Shown here: positions 391 through 29,134 of the stretch, piece by piece
How positions within the stretch are numbered: the stretch's first letter is position 1
How the letters are laid out: every line of letters begins with the position of its first letter
Source of the DNA: Candidatus Saccharimonadota bacterium
GTDB taxonomy: Bacteria > Patescibacteriota > Saccharimonadia > Saccharimonadales > Saccharimonadaceae
NCBI GenBank assembly: GCA_017510425.1
Contig: JAFWNJ010000005.1
Span: 1-33,945, forward strand
Reading direction: 5' to 3'
Length of the DNA stretch: 33,945 bases
The notes under the pieces: model-generated
Seen by the model: only the letters and a program-made list of their open reading frames with translations
The model's database searches: none
What the model was told of the DNA's origin: nothing
Position numbers and translations under genes: made by a program

Positions 391-2898
391 CTATGAGCCT
401 GGGGCTAGGCAGCGCACGGAAAAACCATAATTTTTATACCAGGCACCTGAATCAGAAGCAGGTTCGATGTAATCATTCTGTATGTTCAATCTGTCAGTAA
501 ATATATTAATGACTGCCCTGCTTGACCAATAAACACCTGAATAACCACGACTTTCTGCTACAGAGTTCTCCCATCCGCCGGAGTAGAGGAAATTATTTGG
601 GTAGCTTCGCCATCTATTAGAAGCCTCGACGGTGGATTGGTAACTCCCAGTACCACCTAAATCAATGTCTAGTGCTATATATTGACCATCATTACCACCA
701 GTTGGCATAAACCAGCCATTTGGGCATATACTACCAGTAGCATTACCACTATTCTGGTTGTGGGCATAAGTCCCAGTTCCAGCTGTAGCAGTGTACCAGT
801 TATAATAGTTGCCATATGAGTACCAGCTGTAATTGTTGCCAATAGAACCTTTGATACCACCATTCACATTACTACCATTGTACAGACCTGGACCATTGAT
901 GAGTGGAGTATTAGAAGCATTGATACCACCTAGGTTTGTATTGTTGGTGTTTAATTTGTTCTGATTGATGCAGGTTTCATTGTCGTCAGTACACCATTCA
1001 TCAGTGGAAGCTGCAATACTAGTGAATCCTGATGCGGGATTATTAGTGTTTGAGCTGCTTAATGTTGCTGTATTATCTAGTCTTAAGTTCTCCATCATCC
1101 AACAGTTGCCATCAGCTAGTTTTCCTACTGTGTAGACATTATTATCACGTGTATCGGTAAGAGCAGTGACTTGGTTAGCGTTTAGAGTGCTACAGGAGAA
1201 GTTCTGCATATTGCCATTAGACTGTACCCATACAGCATATAGTACAGCAGATTTGTTATTGTCCTCATCGTAAGTTAGAGTTCCAGCATTGATGTTTTGG
1301 TTAGGTCCATAGATAGTATCGCTACCATTTACTGTGGCATTCGGATTCTCACTCCAACCAGCAAAGCCATAACCTGTCTTCTTGTAGTTAGGAGCCATCA
1401 GATCTACCGTATTATTTACGCCACTAGCATCATTGGGATTAGCTGGGTCTGGAATAGTGACGAAACCATTCATAGTACCAGCAGTATTGGCGTTCCCATC
1501 GTAGACTATAGCATATGGATTGCCGGCTGTAACAGTAAGGCCAGTACTAGCTACTTCCTCAGCATGTTCACCAATGTAGGCTTCAACATCTGCTTCGTCA
1601 GTGAAAGTATTAGTCCCCATAGTCCAAGTACCTTTGAAATGGTTTGGCTCTATGTAAGTACCATCTCCAGCAGTATAGTTACAAATAGCAGTGATATCTA
1701 TGCCGGCTGGTTCGGTATTGTAGATAGGATAGACCTCGGCAAAGTAGCCATAATCTTGCCCATCTGTAGCTGTAGGTGCACTATTTGCCATCATGCCAAA
1801 AGTAACCGTATCGCCATTAAAGGTATATGTAGCAGTACCAGTGGCTGGACCTTGCAGCATTTCGTAGTTGCCTGGAGCACTTTGGCCATCATAGTTTCCT
1901 TCTATTACTGCAAGCATAGTATCACCAGATAGTCCATAACGGATTACGACCTTCATTTTATCAGCACCAGTAGCAGTGATTGGGGTTAGTGTAGTTCCTG
2001 TTGGATAAGAGCCACTTTGATTACCGTCATTATCAACATTAGAGGTCTTAGCAATTAGTGGTGTAGCAGCTATATAGATCGCATTAGTACAATCCTCCGT
2101 ATAAATAACTCGGTTAGTAGTAGCCCCACCAGCGAATTGAAGTTCTCCACTGTTATAAGTAACCTGTATACCAGTGCCCGGAGCAGCATGAGAAGCTGGA
2201 TGGACCAACGTATAGATTACTTGTCCTGTATAGGTATCCGCAGCTTGAGTCTTAGAAATGTAGGCAGCATATGTAGTGGTAAGTTTAACTCCACCAGTAG
2301 TATTAGTCATGTCAGTAGCTGAGTTCTTATGAGCGACTTTAGTGTATTCGTTTGGGACTACATGGTACTCAGAGAATGATGCAGGTGTAGCAGATTGTTC
2401 TGCTTGGCTTGGAAGGTCTACATTCGGAGCAGAATCAATGACGAATGCATTGGTTTCTGATGTATCACCAGAATCTTGTGTGATGGCTAGTTTCATCGCC
2501 CAGTTAGATACATCAGGATTTCCTGCTGATGTGGCTAATCCTGATTCTATAGCGGCATTACCACTGGAAGATGTTCCGACTAGCTTATTACTATTAGTCC
2601 CACCTATTTCATCTCCTGTATATCCTGCTGCATAGATAGCAAATCCTGCATTATCATTACAGAATACATGCATAGTAGTAGTACCAATGTCTGGTGTATA
2701 GGTACCATTATTAATATTAGCATTATGAGTGTCCATTCCAGTACCGGACATAGTACAGGACATAGGGACAGTAATGTTAATTTGATCTACAGTAGAATTA
2801 TCATCGGCCGAGACAATAGAAGAAGCTAGAATGGTACCAGCAAGGATAGTGAGACTTGCTAGGCTTAGTGGGATTAGATTTAGTTTATTTGTATTCAT
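391..2898 (-). CDS. Secreted modular surface protein with C-terminal FISUMP domain
   Basis: The protein has about 835 residues. The ATG at 2898 is preferred over one five codons upstream because AAAGG sits 8 nt before it, inside the longer frame. An N-terminal signal peptide ends near SIVSADDN. Then come a conserved module of about 220 residues with paired cysteines (VPMSCTMSG, HVFCNDN), shared with two other proteins here; a second module shared with the protein at 14473-16728; a Listeria-Bacteroides repeat (YAIVYDGN to GFAGWSEN to LYAVWVQ); and a FISUMP (TIGR02145-type) domain marked by GKLADGNCWMMENLRL, ICPNGWFMPTGG and GFSVRCL. It is probably cotranscribed with the upstream surface gene, 28 nt away. 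No LPXTG anchor is visible. A role in adhesion or host contact is inferred. Unlike its relatives, its C-terminus does not show the NNC-codon variable pattern. Confidence 0.85.
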   Translation of the reverse strand: MNTNKLNLIPLSLASLTILAGTILASSIVSADDNSTVDQINITVPMSCTMSGTGMDTHNANINNGTYTPDIGTTTMHVFCNDNAGFAIYAAGYTGDEIGGTNSNKLVGTSSSGNAAIESGLATSAGNPDVSNWAMKLAITQDSGDTSETNAFVIDSAPNVDLPSQAEQSATPASFSEYHVVPNEYTKVAHKNSATDMTNTTGGVKLTTTYAAYISKTQAADTYTGQVIYTLVHPASHAAPGTGIQVTYNSGELQFAGGATTNRVIYTEDCTNAIYIAATPLIAKTSNVDNDGNQSGSYPTGTTLTPITATGADKMKVVIRYGLSGDTMLAVIEGNYDGQSAPGNYEMLQGPATGTATYTFNGDTVTFGMMANSAPTATDGQDYGYFAEVYPIYNTEPAGIDITAICNYTAGDGTYIEPNHFKGTWTMGTNTFTDEADVEAYIGEHAEEVASTGLTVTAGNPYAIVYDGNANTAGTMNGFVTIPDPANPNDASGVNNTVDLMAPNYKKTGYGFAGWSENPNATVNGSDTIYGPNQNINAGTLTYDEDNNKSAVLYAVWVQSNGNMQNFSCSTLNANQVTALTDTRDNNVYTVGKLADGNCWMMENLRLDNTATLSSSNTNNPASGFTSIAASTDEWCTDDNETCINQNKLNTNNTNLGGINASNTPLINGPGLYNGSNVNGGIKGSIGNNYSWYSYGNYYNWYTATAGTGTYAHNQNSGNATGSICPNGWFMPTGGNDGQYIALDIDLGGTGSYQSTVEASNRWRSYPNNFLYSGGWENSVAESRGYSGVYWSSRAVINIFTDRLNIQNDYIEPASDSGAWYKNYGFSVRCLAPGS

Positions 2899-2926
2899 TA
2901 TATGACCTTTCATTAATTTAAAAGCT

Positions 2927-4606
2927 TTATGGCTGGGCGATAGTGAATGATTTGCCGGATGGGGGAATTACGTATGTAGATGTAGTTTGTCCATAAAGAC
3001 GGCTAGTAGTATTGTTAATACTATTCCCGTTTGTTTGAGGAATGGTTACAGACCAGGTGGTGGCGGAGTTGCCGGCGCTAGAGAACATGAAGCTCATGTT
3101 TGTTACGTTGGAAGTATTCCAGGAGGAGAGGTCCAAAGTAAAGGTGGTGGCGGAGTAGCCAGCGCGATAAAACATGGAGTTCATGTTTGTCACGTTAGAA
3201 GTATTCCAGGAAGAGAGGTCCAAAGTAAAGGTGGTGGCGGAGTAGCCGGCAGATTCGAACATGTTGATCATATCTGTCACGTTGGAAGTATTCCAGGAGG
3301 AGAGGTCCAAAGTAAAGGTGGTGGCGGAGTAGCCGGCATAATAGAACATGTGGTCCATACCTGTCACGTTGGAAGTACTCCAAGAGGAGAGGTTGCCGAT
3401 AGACCAGATGGTGGCGGAGTAGCCGGCAAAATAGAACATGCTGTTCATATTTGTTGCGTTAGTAGTATCCCAATCGTTGATACCAGAAATCTCAGAAAGA
3501 TTATTAATCATATAAAACATAAAAGACGAATCAGAGGGTAGGAAGATTTTTTCTCCTTCTGTATAGAAATGCATAATACCAGCATCGTTAGTATTATCAA
3601 AGACGATATAAATCGGCTTCTTAGATGCTGTAGACGAGATAGTGTTCATTTCGGAAGGACTAAAACCTGCAGGAGCAGGGGTGTTTAAGTGGATACTGAT
3701 GGATTTAATATATCTATCATTTGCGTAATTCCAATCGTAACTACTACTTGGGTTAAATTCTGGAGTAATGGTGGTTTCTTCACCACTTACAACAGAAGCG
3801 GCAAGAGATTTCAATTTGGAGTTAACTACTTTTCCGGTATCCAACATAGCAGGATTAGCAATAGGTGCATCATGATTGCTTGGATGAACCAGAGTATAGA
3901 TTACTTGTCCCGTATAGGTATCAGCAGCTTGAGTCTTGGAAATGTAAGCAGCATAGGTAGTAGTAAGCTTTACTCCACCAGTAGTTGTGGTCATATCAGT
4001 GACTGAGTTCTTATGAGCAACTTTAACGTATTCATTTGGTACTACATGGTAGTCTGAGAAGGAGGCACTGGTGGCTCCTGATTCTGCTTCACTAGGTAGT
4101 GATACATTAGGAGCAGAGTCTATCACGAAGGCATTAGTACCAGACGTATCACCAGAATCCTGTGTGATAGCTAGTTTCATCGCCCAGTTAGATATGTCAG
4201 GATTACCAGCCGATGTAGCTATGCCAGATTCTATGGTACTATTTCCACTAGCATTGGTTCCAACTAGTTTATTACTATTCTCTCCACCTATTTCATCTCC
4301 TGTATATCCTGCAGCATAGATAGCGAAACCTTCATTATCATTACAAAATACTTTTAGTGTAGTAGTCCCTATACCATCAGGATAATAATCATTCCCCCTC
4401 GAGTCTACACCATTTGGTATCTCTGCAGTATGTGGAGTCGTGGTATTCCCGGTCATGGAGCAAGCGAGAGAGACTTTCACGGAAGCTGAGGAAGCACCAG
4501 AACCATTCGCTGTTACCCCAGGTACGGTTAATAATCCGCCTATCAACATCGTCATGCCCACCATACCACCAGGTAACAAGAAATTCGCAAATCTAGATTC
4601 CTTCAT
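2927..4606 (-). CDS. Secreted surface protein with DUF285 (BspA/Listeria-type) repeats
   Basis: The protein has 559 residues. A signal peptide (MKESRFANFLLPGG, then a hydrophobic stretch ending near VTANG) is followed by the same ~220-residue N-terminal module as the neighbouring surface genes. The C-terminal part consists of DUF285-type repeats with the core SSWNTSNVTNMNSMF and the tail AGYSATTFTLDL, in a 29-residue period rather than the usual 26. Such repeats occur in surface proteins of Listeria, mycoplasmas and gut bacteria. The start codon lies exactly 6 nt after a TATAAT box, so the mRNA is probably leaderless. The gene likely heads an operon with the next surface gene. A C-terminal anchor was not recognised. 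Confidence 0.85.
   Translation of the reverse strand: MKESRFANFLLPGGMVGMTMLIGGLLTVPGVTANGSGASSASVKVSLACSMTGNTTTPHTAEIPNGVDSRGNDYYPDGIGTTTLKVFCNDNEGFAIYAAGYTGDEIGGENSNKLVGTNASGNSTIESGIATSAGNPDISNWAMKLAITQDSGDTSGTNAFVIDSAPNVSLPSEAESGATSASFSDYHVVPNEYVKVAHKNSVTDMTTTTGGVKLTTTYAAYISKTQAADTYTGQVIYTLVHPSNHDAPIANPAMLDTGKVVNSKLKSLAASVVSGEETTITPEFNPSSSYDWNYANDRYIKSISIHLNTPAPAGFSPSEMNTISSTASKKPIYIVFDNTNDAGIMHFYTEGEKIFLPSDSSFMFYMINNLSEISGINDWDTTNATNMNSMFYFAGYSATIWSIGNLSSWSTSNVTGMDHMFYYAGYSATTFTLDLSSWNTSNVTDMINMFESAGYSATTFTLDLSSWNTSNVTNMNSMFYRAGYSATTFTLDLSSWNTSNVTNMSFMFSSAGNSATTWSVTIPQTNGNSINNTTSRLYGQTTSTYVIPPSGKSFTIAQP
3024..3480 (-). repeat. 87-bp tandem repeats encoding DUF285 units
   Basis: About five units of 87 bp (29 codons) lie head to tail, for example starting at 3110, 3197, 3284 and 3371. 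They are nearly identical at the DNA level, so recent duplication or slippage is likely and copy number may vary between strains. The flanking units are more diverged. Confidence 0.85.
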
Positions 4607-12407: not shown

Positions 12408-14303
12408 CTACATTTTCTCCGGAATATTAATACCCAACAAACCTAAGCCATGAGTCATGGTGTTTAAATATAGTTCGACAAGTCTGAGGCGGGCGGATTC
12501 TTCGTCGCTGCCGATGACTTCACAGTTCTCGTAGAAGCGGCTGAAGACCTGAGCGAGTTCGTATAAGAAACTCGCTACTTTATGAGGAGCAAATTCGGAT
12601 ACTGCCTCGTCTAAAACTGTGCGGTACTCGAGAAGCTTCTTGATTAAATCTCTCTCCGGTGCCATAATGCACGCTCGTTCGCCGCTTCGCTCACGCCCGT
12701 CGTTACGGGGTTCGCTCGCTAGTGCTCCCCGTTGGTCGCACATGCTCACTCGCCGTGCATTATTAGCACTGTTGACAGACTTCTTCGCTAAGATCTTCTT
12801 GGCGCGGACACAGGAGTAGAGGAGGTAGGGGCCGGAGTTGCCAGTCATTTTGACGGATTCTTTAGGGTCGAATATGATGTCGCCGCCCATTTTGTATTTG
12901 AGGAAAGCATACTTGGTGGCAGCGAGAGAAACTATTTCATCTTCGGAACCATGTTCTTCTTTCAGTGCGGTGCGGACCATGTCAAGAACGTCGACGGCTT
13001 TTAAGAAATTACCTTTTCTAGAGGACATTTTAACGCCACCAGGGAGTTTGACGAGACCGTGAGTTAAGTGAGTGGTTTTCTCGACTAATTCTGGGGCGTA
13101 TTGCTCAACGGATTTGAGAACTACTTTCATGTAATCTAGCTGCTCGGAACCAGTGATGACAATGGACTTGTCAAAATGATAATCCTGCCATTTCGTGAAG
13201 ATGAGGCCGACGTCTTTGGCTTCGTAAGTAGGAACGCCTTCTTTATTGATGAAGACTCTAGTATGGAGGCCGTATTTATCGCCATTGAAAATCACGGCAC
13301 CGTCGGAATATTCGTAGACACCTTTTCCCAACTGTTCTTTAACCTTTTCTAGGCCTAGGTTTGCTACGGTGGACTCGGGGTAATACTTGTCGAATTTTAC
13401 ACCGATGGAATCGTAGAACTGGTCGAAATATTGATAGGATAATTCCCTGCCACGCCAATACAACTCCGTAAGTGCAGGAACCGAAAAAGATTCTTTCTCG
13501 GAACGCTCCCTCACGCCCGTCGTCACGGGGTTCGGTCGCTCCGTAAATGGCCCGTCGCCATTTATGCTCCTCGAAAGAGCTTTTTTCGGTTCTCCGGCGG
13601 CGTTGATGGCGTAGATTTCCTTGTTGAGCTCGGTAATCTTTTGATGCGCCTTTTCATCGTCTTCGTAAAGAGCGGTGCCTTCTACGTAGCATTTGGCAAT
13701 GTCTTCGATGGTGAGATTGTCGATGGGTTTTTGCTGGAGGGCATACATGGTCTTAGCGACATGGAGGCCAACGTCGCCGCCAAAATTGGCGCGAATGACT
13801 TTGGCGCCGGCGTATTCGTAGAGTCTTGCAATAGAGTCGCCAACGATGCTAGTATAAAGATGGCCAACATGGAGGACTTTGAACGGATTGGGGTCGCTGA
13901 ATTCACAGATTACTGTCTGACCTTTATACTGCTCTGATGAGATGCCCGTATCGAATACATCAATAGAATCACTTAAATAATCGTCTGATAATGTGAAATT
14001 TAAGAAGCCTGGCGCTGAAATGCTCGCAATAGTGCTTTTTCGGAACGCTCCCTCGCTCCCGTCGTTACGGGGCTCGGTCGCTCCGTATTTGGCCCGTCGC
14101 CAAATATGCTCCTCAAAAGCACTATTTGCGAGCTTTTCGGCGATAGCCATTGGATTCTCATGCAATTCCTTTGCAAGTTTCAATGGGGCGTTTGATGAGT
14201 AGTCGGCATCGATATTATCAGGGGAGGGGGTGAGGTCGGGTTCAAAATCAAGGCCATAGAGGTCGTGGATAAGCTGCTTTAGTGTTGCCTTGATGTCTTG
14301 CAT
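12408..14303 (-). CDS. argS: Arginyl-tRNA synthetase with three in-frame palindromic insertions
   Basis: This class I synthetase charges tRNA-Arg. The HIGH motif is HVGH (145-148) within FKVLHVGHLYTSIVGDS, and the KMSKS-like motif is KMSSRKG (about 424-430). A C-terminal helical anticodon-binding domain ends in the window. Length is 631 residues against about 560-580 in the family. The excess is mostly three GC-rich inserts at about residues 58-94, 238-276 and 512-549, which encode EPRNDG- or NPVTTG-like peptides and fold as palindromes at the DNA level. All fall in likely linkers: before the APGFLNF strand, after EIYAIN, and between the catalytic and anticodon domains. Both signature motifs are intact, so the enzyme is probably functional. 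The start follows TATAAT by 6 nt. Confidence 0.93.
   Translation of the reverse strand: MQDIKATLKQLIHDLYGLDFEPDLTPSPDNIDADYSSNAPLKLAKELHENPMAIAEKLANSAFEEHIWRRAKYGATEPRNDGSEGAFRKSTIASISAPGFLNFTLSDDYLSDSIDVFDTGISSEQYKGQTVICEFSDPNPFKVLHVGHLYTSIVGDSIARLYEYAGAKVIRANFGGDVGLHVAKTMYALQQKPIDNLTIEDIAKCYVEGTALYEDDEKAHQKITELNKEIYAINAAGEPKKALSRSINGDGPFTERPNPVTTGVRERSEKESFSVPALTELYWRGRELSYQYFDQFYDSIGVKFDKYYPESTVANLGLEKVKEQLGKGVYEYSDGAVIFNGDKYGLHTRVFINKEGVPTYEAKDVGLIFTKWQDYHFDKSIVITGSEQLDYMKVVLKSVEQYAPELVEKTTHLTHGLVKLPGGVKMSSRKGNFLKAVDVLDMVRTALKEEHGSEDEIVSLAATKYAFLKYKMGGDIIFDPKESVKMTGNSGPYLLYSCVRAKKILAKKSVNSANNARRVSMCDQRGALASEPRNDGRERSGERACIMAPERDLIKKLLEYRTVLDEAVSEFAPHKVASFLYELAQVFSRFYENCEVIGSDEESARLRLVELYLNTMTHGLGLLGINIPEKM
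12659..12769 (-). repeat. Palindromic element copy C inside argS
   Basis: The arms GTGCCATAATGCACG (12659-12673) and CGTGCATTATTAGCAC (12754-12769) are inverted repeats. The 80-bp core shares about 33 nearly identical bases with copies A and B, around the hairpin whose stem is CCCGT/ACGGG. Its first hairpin differs in sequence but keeps a stem (GTGC/GCAC). It is translated in the same frame as copy A (EPRNDG). Confidence 0.8.
13478..13592 (-). repeat. Palindromic element copy B inside argS
   Basis: Its 20-nt inverted arms (13478-13497 and 13573-13592) match at 17 positions. The 74-bp core (13499-13572) has the same length as that of copy A and is identical at about 66 of 74 positions. It is translated in a different frame from A and C (giving NPVTTG). 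Confidence 0.85.
14022..14133 (-). repeat. Palindromic element copy A inside argS
   Basis: The arms GCTCGCAATAGTGCTTTTT (14022-14040) and AAAAGCACTATTTGCGAGC (14115-14133) pair with a single-base bulge. The 74-bp core (14041-14114) contains a TATTTGG/CCAAATA hairpin and a CCCGT/ACGGG hairpin. It adds about 30 residues to the synthetase without breaking the frame. Confidence 0.85.
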
Positions 14304-14472: not shown

Positions 14473-16728
14473 CTACTCAGATAGCAAGCATCGCATAGAC
14501 TGACCGTAGAAGCGATTGGAGCTATTGTTCGGGTCCACATAAGTCGGCTCGACGCCCAGGCGGTACATGTGGTCGCTACTGTCGTAAGTAGACGACCACC
14601 AGATACCGTAGCTACCCTGAACGCTCGCGGCATTACCGTGGTAGTCGCCCGACAGAGGCGTAGATAAGTTATATTGGAGACTATTGGTTTCTGTAGCAGT
14701 ATTAGTGTATTTTTGAGCTAAAGTGGAGTATTCTCCAGTCTTGCCACCAGTAGGCATTCTCCAGTTAGCTGGACAGATGTCTTGCGGAGCGTCAATGATG
14801 GTATCTGGTACATCTATGCCTTGTCTACTTGCATAACAGTAAGTACTAGCCGATGCGGCACAGTAGTTGTAGTAGAGACCTACTTTGGCCTGTCCATTAG
14901 TGGAAGCTGAGCCATAGCTAGTGACGAGAGTATTTTTACTAGCATTGTTAATGCGTGGTTGGATATAGCCATCATTATTATCGAAGTTTGTCGTAACATT
15001 AGCTACCGCAGTATTACTCCAACCAGTGTTAGTACTACCACCATGAAGGAGGTTATATATGGCTTCTTCTGTAGCATTAGTATTAGACTCATTCATGTTT
15101 TGTGCGGTAGTGGAATCAGTTGGATCAAGTGCTAGGTTATCTAACATCCAACAGTTACCGTCTTTTAGTTTGCCTACCATATAGGTATTATTATCTCTTA
15201 CATCTTTTAGTGTTTGGTTCTGAGTAATGGCTATTGTGTTGCACATACTCTTAGTGAGTTCTTGTTGCTTATAATAACCGCCATCTTGTGATTTATTCGC
15301 CCTAGTGTAGGCTTCGATAAAGGTAAGACCACGATAGAGATCTATAGTAGAACCACTAAGAGTAGATATGTTTTCCGATAAGAAGTTAGTGACTTCGGCC
15401 TCGTTCATAAAATCATAATGTCCACCATTAATATCACCATACCAAGAACCATACCAATCCGTAGTAGTAGCATAAGTGCCGGTACTCGCAACAAAGGTGG
15501 TAAATTCATCTGAAGCTTCAGTGTCAAATTGCTCAGTAGTATAGATTGGATATACTCTAGCCCAGAAACCATAGTCGTAGTCTGCAACCGGAGCAGAACC
15601 AGAGAAATTATTCAGATAAAACGTTACCGTATCACCATCAAAGACATAGGTTTCAGTTCCAGCTAGATTTTCACTTTGTGCGATTATAATATCGGGCATA
15701 CTACTCATACCATCCCAATTACCTTTTGCGATAGCTAGTCCAGTACCATTAGTGACACCATAAGTTATCACAACTTTCATTTTAGTAGCACCAGTTGCAG
15801 CGATTGGAGTTAGGACATTAACATCAGATGCATAAGCAGTATTCTTTGTCCCGTCATCTGCTACATTGGGAGATTTAGCAATTAGCGGGGTGGTAGCTAT
15901 GTACATTGGATTATTAGCATACACTACATTGTTTGTTGTGCCGCCTCCAGCAAAGGTAGAACCATTAGCGTGATAAGTCACACCAACCTTCCCTGCACCT
16001 ACTGGAGCTGGAGCGGTAGATGGATGAACTAGAGTATAGATCACTTGTCCTGAATAAGTATCAGCAGCTTGAGTTTTAGAAATGTAAGCAGCATAAGTAG
16101 TAGTAAGCTTAACTCCACCAGTAGTTTCAGCCATATCAGTATCAGAGTTCTTATGGGCTACTTTAACGTATTCATTTGGGACTACATGATAATTACTAAA
16201 TGGAGCTTGAGTAGCACCAGATTCCGCAGTACTCGGAAGAGCTACATTTGGAGCAGAATCAATAGCAAAAGCATTGGTTTCTGTTGTATCACCAGAATCT
16301 TGTGTGATGGCTAGTTTCATCGCCCAGTTAGATACGTCTGGATTTCCTGCCGAAGTAGCTAATCCTGATTCTATAGCGGCATTACCACTGGCAGATGTCC
16401 CGACTAACTTATTACTATTAGTCCCACCTATTTCATCTCCTGTATATCCAGCAGCATAGATAGCGAATCCTTCATTATCATTACAGAATACATGCATAGT
16501 AGTAGTACCAATGTCTGGTGTATAGGTACCATTATTAATATTAGCATTATGGGAATCCTGTCCAGTACCGGACATAGTACAGGACATAGGCACAGTAATA
16601 CTAATTTGATCTACGGTAGAATTATCATCGGCTGAGACAATATTAGATGATAACATAGTCGCTACCGTTATTAATACAATAACGGGTAGAGATGGTAGTA
16701 AATTATTTTGTTGTGGTGAAGATTTCAT
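14473..16728 (-). CDS. Secreted modular surface protein with FISUMP domain and variable-looking C-terminus
   Basis: The protein has 751 residues. A signal peptide ends near SNIVSADDN. It is followed by the ~220-residue N-terminal module almost identical in DNA to that of the protein at 391-2898, by a second shared module (TPLIAKSPNV to RVYPIYTTE), and by a FISUMP domain (GKLKDGNCWMLDNLAL, ICPANWRMPTGG, QSMRCLL). The last ~60 codons change character abruptly: GC content rises and codons ending in C dominate (GAC, TAC, CAC, AGC), unlike the T/A-ending codons before. Asp, Tyr, Ser and His are enriched, as expected if adenine-rich template codons had been mutated. Shine-Dalgarno AAGGG precedes the ATG. 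Surface exposure is inferred. Confidence 0.83.
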   Translation of the reverse strand: MKSSPQQNNLLPSLPVIVLITVATMLSSNIVSADDNSTVDQISITVPMSCTMSGTGQDSHNANINNGTYTPDIGTTTMHVFCNDNEGFAIYAAGYTGDEIGGTNSNKLVGTSASGNAAIESGLATSAGNPDVSNWAMKLAITQDSGDTTETNAFAIDSAPNVALPSTAESGATQAPFSNYHVVPNEYVKVAHKNSDTDMAETTGGVKLTTTYAAYISKTQAADTYSGQVIYTLVHPSTAPAPVGAGKVGVTYHANGSTFAGGGTTNNVVYANNPMYIATTPLIAKSPNVADDGTKNTAYASDVNVLTPIAATGATKMKVVITYGVTNGTGLAIAKGNWDGMSSMPDIIIAQSENLAGTETYVFDGDTVTFYLNNFSGSAPVADYDYGFWARVYPIYTTEQFDTEASDEFTTFVASTGTYATTTDWYGSWYGDINGGHYDFMNEAEVTNFLSENISTLSGSTIDLYRGLTFIEAYTRANKSQDGGYYKQQELTKSMCNTIAITQNQTLKDVRDNNTYMVGKLKDGNCWMLDNLALDPTDSTTAQNMNESNTNATEEAIYNLLHGGSTNTGWSNTAVANVTTNFDNNDGYIQPRINNASKNTLVTSYGSASTNGQAKVGLYYNYCAASASTYCYASRQGIDVPDTIIDAPQDICPANWRMPTGGKTGEYSTLAQKYTNTATETNSLQYNLSTPLSGDYHGNAASVQGSYGIWWSSTYDSSDHMYRLGVEPTYVDPNNSSNRFYGQSMRCLLSE
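14480..14655 (-). other. Candidate diversified (variable) segment at a FISUMP C-terminus
   Basis: The coding strand runs through many codons of form NNC (GAC, TAC, CAC, AGC, ATC, CGC, GTC, TTC) with invariant-looking TGG and CGA TGC TTG at the ends. This resembles the variable regions at 25685-25858 and 27601-27770 but is not homologous enough to align as a copy, so a different template would be needed. Confidence 0.35.
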
Positions 16729-22077: not shown

Positions 22078-23022
22078 TTAAGCTGCTGGCGCTGGGGGAG
22101 TGGGGGGAGTTTCTGGTACTGGAGTAGGTGTGGGGGCTGGCTGCCCGGGAGCTGGAGTTGGAGATGCTGGCTGCTCGGGGGTCGGGGTTGGAGCTTCAGG
22201 TGTGGGGGCTGGAACTTCGGGAGTAGGAGCCGGAACAGGAGCCGGTGGAGTTACTTGGGCAGGTGCCGGAGCAGGTTGTGCAGGAGTGGAGGCTGGAGCT
22301 GGTGCGGGTTGTTCAGGTGCAGGTGCAGGAGCGAGGACTGACTGTTCTGGAACTGGAGCTGGGGCAGGAGCTGGCTCGGCATAGTTTTCCGAAGGACCTT
22401 CGAGTGCAGCTTGCTTTTCTACAAGCTCGGCATCCTCTTCTTTCTGAATCTCGACATAAGCCTTGGTGAGCTTTTTGATATGTTTTGACGTGATGATGAT
22501 TTTAATCACTAGGTAAATTAAACAAATCGGGCCGAGCATTAAGGCAATCATGGACTTGAACAGGAACCAAGCTATTGAGACGATAGTCATGATGGTGCCC
22601 TTGCCTTGGTATGAGACGTAGCCGTATTCGGTTTCTATGGTGTAGACATCGTCATTGTAGCCTTTGTTAGGGTCGCCACCTTTATTGAAATTCATAGCGA
22701 AGAAACCGACTGGAGCAAGAGCGATTGCGATGAGAAATGGCCAAAAATCATTGAAATTCGGTCTGTTAGCGAAGAAGAAAACGACGGCAATAATGATACC
22801 GAGCGCCAGACCACCGAAGAGCTTCATGTATAATTTGGTGCGGTAGTGAATCAGATCGTTTAATAATTGATTGTATTTGTCTTCGAAACTGGCGGAGTTG
22901 GCATCGTGCAAACATTCGTTGCAGATACCTCCGTTTTGTTGGAAACAGTCCTTACAGAGACCCTTGCCACAGTTTTTACATTGTCCAACCGCTTCGCGAT
23001 CGGTGTGGTTAAAACATTTCAT
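22078..23022 (-). CDS. B-box-like zinc-finger membrane protein with Pro-Ala tail
   Basis: The product has 314 residues. An N-terminal Cys/His cluster (CFNHTDREAVGQCKNCGKGLCKDCF and ICNECLHD) resembles a B-box zinc finger. Three or four hydrophobic segments follow (about 67-85, 93-110 and a broad region at 145-175). The last ~110 residues are a low-complexity tail of Pro, Ala, Glu and Thr (PAPAPEQPAP). B-box plus membrane architecture recurs in CPR genomes with unknown function, and the tail may span the cell wall. AAGGAT lies 5 nt before the ATG. Confidence 0.8.
   Translation of the reverse strand: MKCFNHTDREAVGQCKNCGKGLCKDCFQQNGGICNECLHDANSASFEDKYNQLLNDLIHYRTKLYMKLFGGLALGIIIAVVFFFANRPNFNDFWPFLIAIALAPVGFFAMNFNKGGDPNKGYNDDVYTIETEYGYVSYQGKGTIMTIVSIAWFLFKSMIALMLGPICLIYLVIKIIITSKHIKKLTKAYVEIQKEEDAELVEKQAALEGPSENYAEPAPAPAPVPEQSVLAPAPAPEQPAPAPASTPAQPAPAPAQVTPPAPVPAPTPEVPAPTPEAPTPTPEQPASPTPAPGQPAPTPTPVPETPPTPPAPAA
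22080..22380 (-). repeat. Low-complexity Pro-Ala coding repeat
   Basis: Degenerate short repeats encoding PAP, PTP and PEQP units fill this stretch. The opposite strand is open and Gly-rich as a by-product. Length changes by slippage are likely. Confidence 0.8.
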
Positions 23023-25682: not shown

Positions 25683-27015
25683 AACGGACACTAAATCCGT
25701 AGTACTTAATGCCGTAGTTGGACGGGTACAAGCTCGTAGAGTTTAGGTAGAGGATGTAAGAGAGGCTGTCGTTGCTGTAGTACGCCGACCTACTCCAATA
25801 GTCGCCGCTCGAGCCACGATTGTTCGCGGACGAGCCATTGAAGTAGCCGGAGTAAAGGAAGTTATTCGGGAAGCTTCTAAAGCGATTACTCATAATATCA
25901 CCAGTGCCAATACCGCTCTGGTTATCGCCACTCCCGCCGTATCTTTGAGAAAGAGTACTATATTCTTTATTAGTACCATTACTACTAGGTAAGTGCCAAC
26001 CGGATGGGCAAATGGAAGTATTTGCTGCTTCGGAGGTAGATGAGGATGTATAGTAGTTGGTATTTGCCATAGCGGCAGACCAGGTGTAGTAGTTACCATA
26101 GGATGAGACTGTGGAAGTTTTATAGGTACCACTGGTGGATGGACTTGTAGCATTGGCGTAGTTCTCAGTATAGGTGGGGCTAGACAAGGCGCTAGAATTA
26201 TTGCTGTTATTATAACGTGGGAAGCGGTAACCTGGGCTGTTGGATGTGCCGATATCCTCCAGTACATTGTTGGTGGGATCATAAGTATCTACTGGAGGGT
26301 TGGCAGAGGATTTGTAAATAGTGTTTGCGGTGGTAGAATTGCTAAAGTTAGCAGATTCGGGGTTAGCTAGACCGACGAAATTACCATAAGTACCAGTAGT
26401 ACCACCGTAGCCTTGAGCTAGACTTTGGTTAGTGACGTTACCGTCATTCTTATTATTACCTACAGTCCCAGCTGCTTCCAGCCTTAAGTTCTCTATCATC
26501 CAGCAGTTATCGTCGGCAAGTTTCGCAATAGTATAGACTTCATCATCACGTTTATCGGTTAGGGCAATGATACTATTCTTGTTAACAGTAATCTCACCAG
26601 TGGTACTATTGAAGGTAGTAGAAGCAAGAGCAGCACAAGCATCTGTAGCATCAGTTGGGTCGTCCCATTCTTGAAGATAGACTGGATTATTGTTACCATC
26701 TTTCTCAGCTGGGACCCAGACGGCATACATAGTAATAATATTAGTACCATTAGTAGGATATGCGGGAGCAGAGATAGTCTCCATCGGACCATAGATAATT
26801 GGGTCATTAGTACTGTCATTGTCAGTGAAGTGAGTCCAAGCATCAGGATCGGTAGACCAGCCAGCGAAGCCACTACCAGCTTTTTTGAAGTTAGAAGCGA
26901 GGAGGATTACGGGGTCACCTTCGCCAACATTGGTTTGAGTAACGCTCTTGATGCCGGTAGTTGCATTAGTAGTACCCATACCATTAGGATTATCTGCGCT
27001 GTTGCCATCATATTG
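25683..27015 (-). repeat. Second copy of the internal 1.3-kb duplication
   Basis: It encodes the C-terminal Listeria-Bacteroides/FISUMP unit and aligns along its length with 27597-28985. Differences outside the last ~170 bp look largely conservative, whereas that terminal segment differs mainly by amino-acid replacements. Confidence 0.8.
25685..25858 (-). other. Candidate DGR-type variable region 2
   Basis: Aligned with 27601-27770, this segment differs at codons such as TAC/AAC, AAC/AGC, AGC/GGC, GAC/CTC, ATC/TAC, AAC/TTC, ATT/AAT and CTA/CTG. Nearly all aligned differences can be derived from an adenine in a common template, and third-position C or T is kept. Framework codons such as TGG AGT AGG TCG GCG are identical. 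Confidence 0.6.
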
Positions 27016-27596
27016 GATGGAGTAGACCGGTACCCAATGAGCATATAGTGTAATACCACTTCCTGCGCCGGAGCCACTAGGGACTGTGTAGGTCTTGCCT
27101 ACACCGTATTCGGTATTGGAATTATCTGAATTATCTGCTACGGTAGACCAGCCTTTAATCTTCCAGCCAGTCATGGTGAACTTATTATAGGTGCCAAGAG
27201 TGGCGGCCTCGGTACCAGTACTTGGATTATTAGTAAGATTAATCTTTTGACTATCGGTACCATCTGAAACAGTCTGAGTACAGGAGCTATTAGCACTGGC
27301 GTAAGTTTGGCAGTTGTTGACGTAGGTGATAGTGTATTGTGGATCCCATTGAGCATAAAGAGTTTCGCCAGTAGAACCAGCAGGAATAGTAAAGCTAGAT
27401 GTATAAGAAGTCCCAGAACCATCAGGAGCTGTATTCCAGTTTTTAAATGCATAACCTGGCTTAGCAATAGCAGCAGATGGATTAGAAGAAGAAGGCAAAG
27501 TAATAGTACTACCCGCAGCCCCAAAGGCTATAGAAACCGCGCCAGTGCCATTGTTAGAATCCAGAGCGACCTGCACATCTGCTGAGCCAATAAGAC

Positions 27597-28985
27597 AACG
27601 GACACTAAATCCGTTGCCCTTACTATTGCCGTAGCTGGACGGGTACAAGTACGTAGAGAACAGGCTCAGGTAGTAAGAACCGTAGTTGCTGCCCGCCGAC
27701 CTACTCCAATAGAGGCCGCCCGAGCCACGATTGCTCGCGGGTGAGCCAGTGAAGTTGCCGGAGTAAAGGAAGTTATTCGGGAAGCTTCTAAAGCGACTAC
27801 TCATAATGTCGCCAGTACCAGTACCGCTCTGACTACTGCCTGTGCCACCATAGCGTTGAGAAAGAATACCGTATTCTTTAGTTGTAGTGCCACTAGAAGG
27901 TAAGTGCCAGTTAGATGGACAGATAGAAGTGTTAGCAGCCTCTGAAGTAGATGAGCTGGTATAGTAATTGGTATTAGCCATAGCAGCAGCCCAGGTGTAG
28001 TAATTGCCATAGGATGAGATTGTAGAGGTTTTATAAGTGCCACTGGTGGATGGGCTGGCGGCATTGGTATAGTTCTCGGTAAAGGTGGGACTAGAGAGGG
28101 CGCTGGCATTATTACTATTATTATAGCGGGGGAAGCGATAGCCTGGGTAGTTAGAGGTACCAATATCTTCTAGGGTACTAGTGGACGGATTATAAGTATC
28201 AGTAGGTGAAGCAAGCGAGGACTTGTACATACCGCCATCAGCAAAGCTTAGAGAAGTAGTGGAATTGCTGAAGTTTGCAGATTCTGAAGCAGCTAGACCA
28301 ACGAAATTGCCATAGGTACCAGTAGTACCGCCATAACCTTGAGAGAGGCTTTGGTTAGTGACAGTACTATCGTTCTTATTGTTCCCTACGGTGCCTTCAT
28401 GTTCTAGACGTAGGTTTTCTATCATCCAGCAGTTACCATCAGCTAGTCTAGCTACAGCATAGATCTCATTATCACGTTTATCAGTTAAAGCTACTACACT
28501 GTTTTTATCTACTTGGATCTTACCTTTTTCGTCAGTAATAGTATCATCAAAGATAGTTTGGGTGAGAGTGCTACAACCATCATGCGGGAGAGTAGTATTT
28601 GGATTATCCCAGTTTTGGAAGTAGACTGGAGTACTACTAGGATTAGACGGATCTGTCTTTAGAGCTGGTATCCAGACTGCATACATATTGATTTGGTTTC
28701 TAGTATTAGCTTTACTTGTTAATGTAGAGTCTATTACTACATCTTCCATCGGACCATAGATAATTGGATCATTAGTATTATCATTATCAGTAAAGTGGAT
28801 GTAGGCATCACTATCAGTACTCCAACCAAGGAAGGCGTGTCCAGCTTTTTTGAAGTTAGGAGCTAGAAGGGTGATCTTAGTATCTTCTGCTATATTAATT
28901 TGTCTAACACTTTTCTCACCAGTAGTATTATCTGTAGTACCCATACCACTAGGATTATCTGCACCATTGTCTTGGTATTGGACAG
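27597..28985 (-). repeat. First copy of the internal duplication
   Basis: It encodes the N-terminal Listeria-Bacteroides/FISUMP unit of the giant surface gene. It is slightly longer than the second copy because of a few extra codons, for example around SLSFADGGMYKSS. Confidence 0.8.
27601..27770 (-). other. Candidate DGR-type variable region 1
   Basis: This is the partner of the region at 25685-25858, encoding YSGNFTGSPASNRG to KGNGFSVRC. It has two fewer codons between GCG and TCT but one more near the end. Its position at the end of a lectin-like domain is typical of retroelement-diversified proteins. Confidence 0.6.
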
Positions 28986-29134
28986 AATAAACAAGACAGG
29001 ATGGGTCCATAGTAACAGTATATGTAATGGACGTATTATTGGAGAAAGTATAGCTACCAGGAGACATGGTTTTATCTACAGAAGTTGTATCGGCTACAAT
29101 AATTAAAACAACTAAATTAGGACGTATCACCTGA

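Follow-up and report, generated by a model that had tools for sequence, protein, structure and literature searches.

Palindromic elements with site-specific arms and shared cores, carried in frame within argS and other genes of Candidatus Saccharibacteria

The window analyzed here is a stretch of 33,945 nt (contig JAFWNJ010000005.1 of assembly GCA_017510425.1, from a Candidatus Saccharimonadota bacterium) and corresponds to contig C10 in a genome of 840 kb that comprises 30 contigs. It carries an argS gene, the relatives of which are found in gut and rumen Candidatus Saccharibacteria, Ca. Nanosyncoccus among them, and three copies of a palindromic element lie within this gene:

12408..14303, minus strand: argS (arginine--tRNA ligase), 631 aa; TIGR00456 at 287.8 bits, above cut-off
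13478..13592, minus strand: element copy 1 (argS site A); arms at ~13478-13499 and 13572-13592; covariance model match 13486-13584, 107.2 bits
14022..14134, minus strand: element copy 2 (argS site B); arms at ~14022-14039 and 14116-14134; covariance model match 14028-14126, 117.2 bits
12665..12762, minus strand: element copy 3 (argS site C); covariance model match 12663-12764, 38.5 bits

An earlier note on this DNA, made from its letters alone, had described copies 1 and 2, and both were found to be present where it placed them. It had overlooked their in-frame position inside argS and their membership of an element spread over the genus and family.

The argS reading frame is open across all three elements, each copy adding 27-35 residues (87, 105, and 81 nt) relative to the modal empty loop. 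The same core is read in different frames in copies 1 and 2, and in other argS genes the element lies in the opposite orientation (L032/L116, L110), so that frame and strand are free and only openness is kept; this variation points to selection on the DNA and not on the peptide. The predicted structure of ArgS has pLDDT values below 50 at residues 64-87, 241-274, and 520-542, which correspond to the three elements. These are thus predicted to form disordered loops, although other stretches of ArgS also have low pLDDT and the prediction serves as supporting evidence only.

Folding indicated that the element, of ~115-120 nt, consists of an outer stem of ~20 bp closing a core which bears two hairpins. 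The outer stems are specific to each copy, at ~17-22 bp in copies 1 and 2 and ~9 bp in copy 3. Copy 3 is more diverged and represents a separate subfamily, its second hairpin differing from that of the other two. The 74-nt cores of copies 1 and 2 are 89% identical with ~8 differences, four of which sit in a single stem that reads TAAATGG/CCATTTA in copy 1 and TATTTGG/CCAAATA in copy 2 (the copy called A in the earlier note). This T/A-flipped stem, which that note had recognized, forms hairpin 2; of its eight pairs, two are invariant and six show double changes. The note's wider claim of a conserved hairpin was borne out by a consensus of 13 argS copies, with 20 of 36 pairs changed on both sides and 97.2% of cells paired. 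Neither value was matched in any of 500 shuffles, and sliding the alignment by 1-3 columns left at most 51% paired. This covariation is decisive evidence that the structure of the element is conserved.

The genome-wide collection with a covariance model that the earlier note had proposed was carried out with a model of the element (R1), which detected 29 copies in this genome; four relatives had 14-19 each. Matches (E <=1e-4) were detected in 18 of 197 sampled genomes of the order, all within the same family; 14 of them belong to the same genus, counting this genome, and four to one other genus. When 15 further copies in this genome were examined, 13 were found to sit within ORFs, and across the genus and family most copies are intragenic. 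In a set of 88 distinct argS sequences, nearly all of the large internal insertions are confined to three loops (alignment consensus positions 68, 225, and 462), with one or two insertions at each of three further positions. The loop inserts are mostly palindromic elements of several families, and all 88 sequences reach the normal C-terminus through them.

Orthologous sites in sister genomes mostly hold either the same element, with core and arms nearly identical, or an unrelated one (core identity 0.44-0.7, arms at or near background, flanks 0.71-0.94 identical). In several cases the elements at one site could be independent insertions instead of converted ones. A second palindrome family (L245, L246, L251, L252, L253, L263), with outer CGGGTGAC...GGCAGGACCCG or the reverse and often an inner GGGGG/CCCCC hairpin, was seen to hold the same orthologous sites as the studied element in sister genomes.

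A further observation concerns a 75-nt hairpin nested in the loop of hairpin 1 with an apparent 5-nt duplication (CCGTC/GACGG), which was noticed on comparing L193 (G084) with L210 (G086) and also in the argS insert of L060. It looks like another small element at the same insertion position in two species. Save for this nested insert, the outer element and arms of L193 and L210 are identical by eye in flanks of ~83-88% identity, a likeness which suggests a recent exchange between species.

The complementarity of each arm to its own partner, also reported in the earlier note, was confirmed, exceeding the 99th percentile of wrongly partnered arms in 55 of 67 copies. Between copies, sequence identity drops to background a few bases past the core. 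The arms had been called private to each copy; they are indeed specific to the site, but they are common to orthologous insertions, and nearly the same at four places in one relative (G220). Average arm identity is 0.74-0.79 at the same site against 0.47-0.51 at different sites, and among 80 copies of five genomes every close two-sided arm match was an orthologous pair. At argS site A the cores do not follow this pattern, their identity within the site (0.818) being no higher than that across sites (0.826). Different places with cores 95-99% identical have arms at background, as with L210 and L049 (core 0.99, arms unrelated). In G220, the cores of L273 and L274/L275 are identical (75/75) with unrelated arms, while L274-L277, at four different places, have nearly the same 20-nt arms. 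It follows that arms can travel with the element, and that cores can be shared without them, apparently being exchanged or homogenized independently of the arms. Carriage of the arms from a donor was accordingly rejected as the sole explanation, given unrelated arms on cores 95-100% identical. For argS site A, fast evolution of the arms was rejected as well, since arms (0.806) and cores (0.818) of its orthologues diverge equally.

The cleanest views of insertion come from two loci. At L272, comparison with five empty relatives showed that the whole palindrome, both arms included, is inserted DNA; at L276, pairwise comparison with L296 gave an insert of ~117 nt with both arms. No clear direct duplication was found at either. 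Occupied and empty alleles were compared 19 times over 10 orthologous sites, and the empty alleles contained neither arm above background (1/19 below p 0.05 on each side). Together with the inserted arms of L272, this speaks against the suggestion in the earlier note that one arm is a newly made inverted copy of the flank. Most empty/occupied pairs are unpolarized and some empty alleles resemble losses. For at least the intergenic site G085:C5:31487, a reading as an insertion was set aside in favor of a likely loss by G055/G084, since an insertion with the same arms is present in the outgroup G086. At the orthologues of G086:C14:85039 (L256-L258), two of three 'empty' alleles keep an arm-like stretch and the start of the core, and may be deletion remnants. 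Since no genome close to G220 occurs among the 173 of the genus, many contiguous empty alleles were available at one site only.

Many argS copies have a net insertion that falls short of the palindrome length (palindrome minus net insertion of ~22-31 at site B, 40-50 at site C, and 14-19 at site A), so part of the arms there occupies host length, and host-length sequence may contribute to the arms at these loops. As loop length varies, this accounting fits either one or two new arms.

Taken together, we consider it probable that these are non-autonomous mobile palindromes resembling the Rickettsia palindromic elements (RPE), inserted as whole units, with arms inherited with the site, cores shared, and stems kept paired. 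The palindrome would insert in one piece with both arms, as in the cleanest cases (one polarized, one pairwise). It would persist in intergenic DNA, and in genes where the insertion keeps the frame within a tolerant surface loop, the peptide being translated as a disordered insert. Thereafter the arms are inherited with the site and remain complementary, and the core is common to copies at various places, in one genome or several, largely irrespective of their arms, putatively by gene conversion or core exchange. Such exchange is read from sequence patterns and not from an event between near-identical genomes. Cores at different sites in G220 are 0.897 identical within the genome and 0.752 to other genomes; concerted evolution of cores is clear in G220 and weak in G084, and was not seen in G055 or G003. 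The stems would probably be kept paired by hairpin-templated correction during replication, aided by an apparent lack of SbcD, and/or by a need of the hairpin for mobility. Quasipalindrome template switching is a documented process which makes inverted-repeat arms more alike (PMC8604942, PMC7202029, PMC3820800), and here it is proposed as the keeper of arm pairing.

In E. coli, SbcCD cuts hairpins and limits long palindromes. A search for SbcD alone gave no match over the cut-off in 60 genomes of the genus, with 8 of 14 controls positive, and the best reading is that the elements are tolerated where SbcD is not detected.

A different account, which we regard as unlikely though deserving of weight, is that the core alone is mobile, with new arms synthesized at every insertion by inverted copying of the target flank (through inverted target duplication or template switching primed by a hairpin). 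It would explain why cores that are 95-100% identical carry unrelated arms from place to place, and why net insertions in argS are short. It also fits a 1-nt bulge which lies most often 4-6 nt from the anchor and mostly on one arm (left alone in 35 of 66 copies, right alone in four). However, neither arm is found in the empty alleles, both arms are inserted in L272, and nearly the same arms occur at the four G220 places. That the core is the mobile unit and that hairpin-templated synthesis makes a new ~20-bp stem, with the bulge at a fixed place on one arm, is in our estimate less likely still. If it were true, core-only mobility would leave inverted and not direct duplications.

The elements might instead be ordinary host features whose stems stay paired because every site is under strong selection for a functional RNA or DNA structure, and the massive compensatory change, which extends to the outer arms at orthologous sites, is what such selection would produce. 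This is improbable for structures that are patchy at orthologous sites, lie in many unrelated genes and intergenic places, occur in both orientations and several frames, and are replaced by different families at one site.

If the elements inserted into palindromes already present in the host, complementary private arms would be accounted for, and the earlier note had raised the targeting of inverted host sequence. The empty argS sites A, B, and C did not exceed the remainder of the gene in self-complementarity (mean upper-tail percentiles of 0.64, 0.70, and 0.43) and empty sites do not carry the arms, which disfavors this explanation at argS and leaves it very improbable. Removal of the inserts from RNA, or their skipping by ribosomes, as an intron or bypass element, would suit the interruption of essential enzymes, yet it is equally improbable, as in every argS gene examined the inserts preserve the frame and contain no stops, a constraint that their removal would make needless.

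Several known systems resemble these elements. In two articles (PMC3733652, PMC10969869), RPE (Ogata et al., 2000/2002) are described as palindromes of ~100-150 bp in several families, without a known transposase, many of them in frame within unrelated protein genes where they encode an extra peptide. The Saccharibacteria palindromes likewise lie in frame inside unrelated coding genes, but differ in host, in having insertion-site-specific arms with a shared core, and in recurring strongly at the same three ArgS loops. They may be said to work like RPE, the likeness drawn here being one of behavior.

GTAG- and CGTC-tagged REPs are short dispersed palindromes; the CGTC types include RPE-4 and RPE-6, and no dedicated transposase has been found for them (PMC3733652). 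CGTC REPs are defined by a CGTC tag at one end and a short unpaired tail, mostly CCA. The core of the present element contains CCCGTCGTTACGGG, with CGTC positioned in the stem-loop of hairpin 1 instead of terminally, and it shows no CCA tail. Its ~117-nt compound hairpin and site-specific arms differ from both REP types. GTAG REPs (REP/RAYT) are associated with a Y1 transposase in the genome, and no Y1 (RAYT/IS200) transposase (PF01797) was detected in this genome (G000, 94% complete), with 5 of 14 controls positive. Yeast mitochondrial GC clusters are GC-rich mobile palindromes for which merger, shuffling, and between-species exchange have been reported (PMC4478555), whereas the present elements are bacterial, lie in frame in protein genes, and have a longer compound structure. 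Assignment as a MITE, which needs conserved TIRs and a TSD, was rejected, as the arms are not conserved between sites and no clear direct duplication accompanies L272 or L276. In Rfam, the matches over the gathering score in the window were two tRNAs only, and no element family.

No earlier report of in-frame palindromic repeats in Saccharibacteria was found in the literature searched, which mostly excluded subscription journals. Selfish palindromes carried in frame are known mainly from Rickettsia; the present ones extend through a genus of Saccharibacteria with tiny genomes and reside in enzymes such as ArgS. The repeated striking of the same loops by different families provides many naturally occurring insertions of peptides into housekeeping proteins, and the separate evolution of core and arms offers a means of testing how palindromes are moved and kept paired where SbcD is not detected.

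Other repeats were noticed in the window. Long direct repeats, 71-80% alike, lie at 2180-4370, 16004-16510, and 25770-28992 in apparent paralogous surface-protein genes. An 87-90-nt coding repeat is present in five tandem copies at 3034-3473 (66-89% identical to the reference copy), and a degenerate tandem repeat at 22126-22363 falls in a coding stretch that looks Pro-rich.
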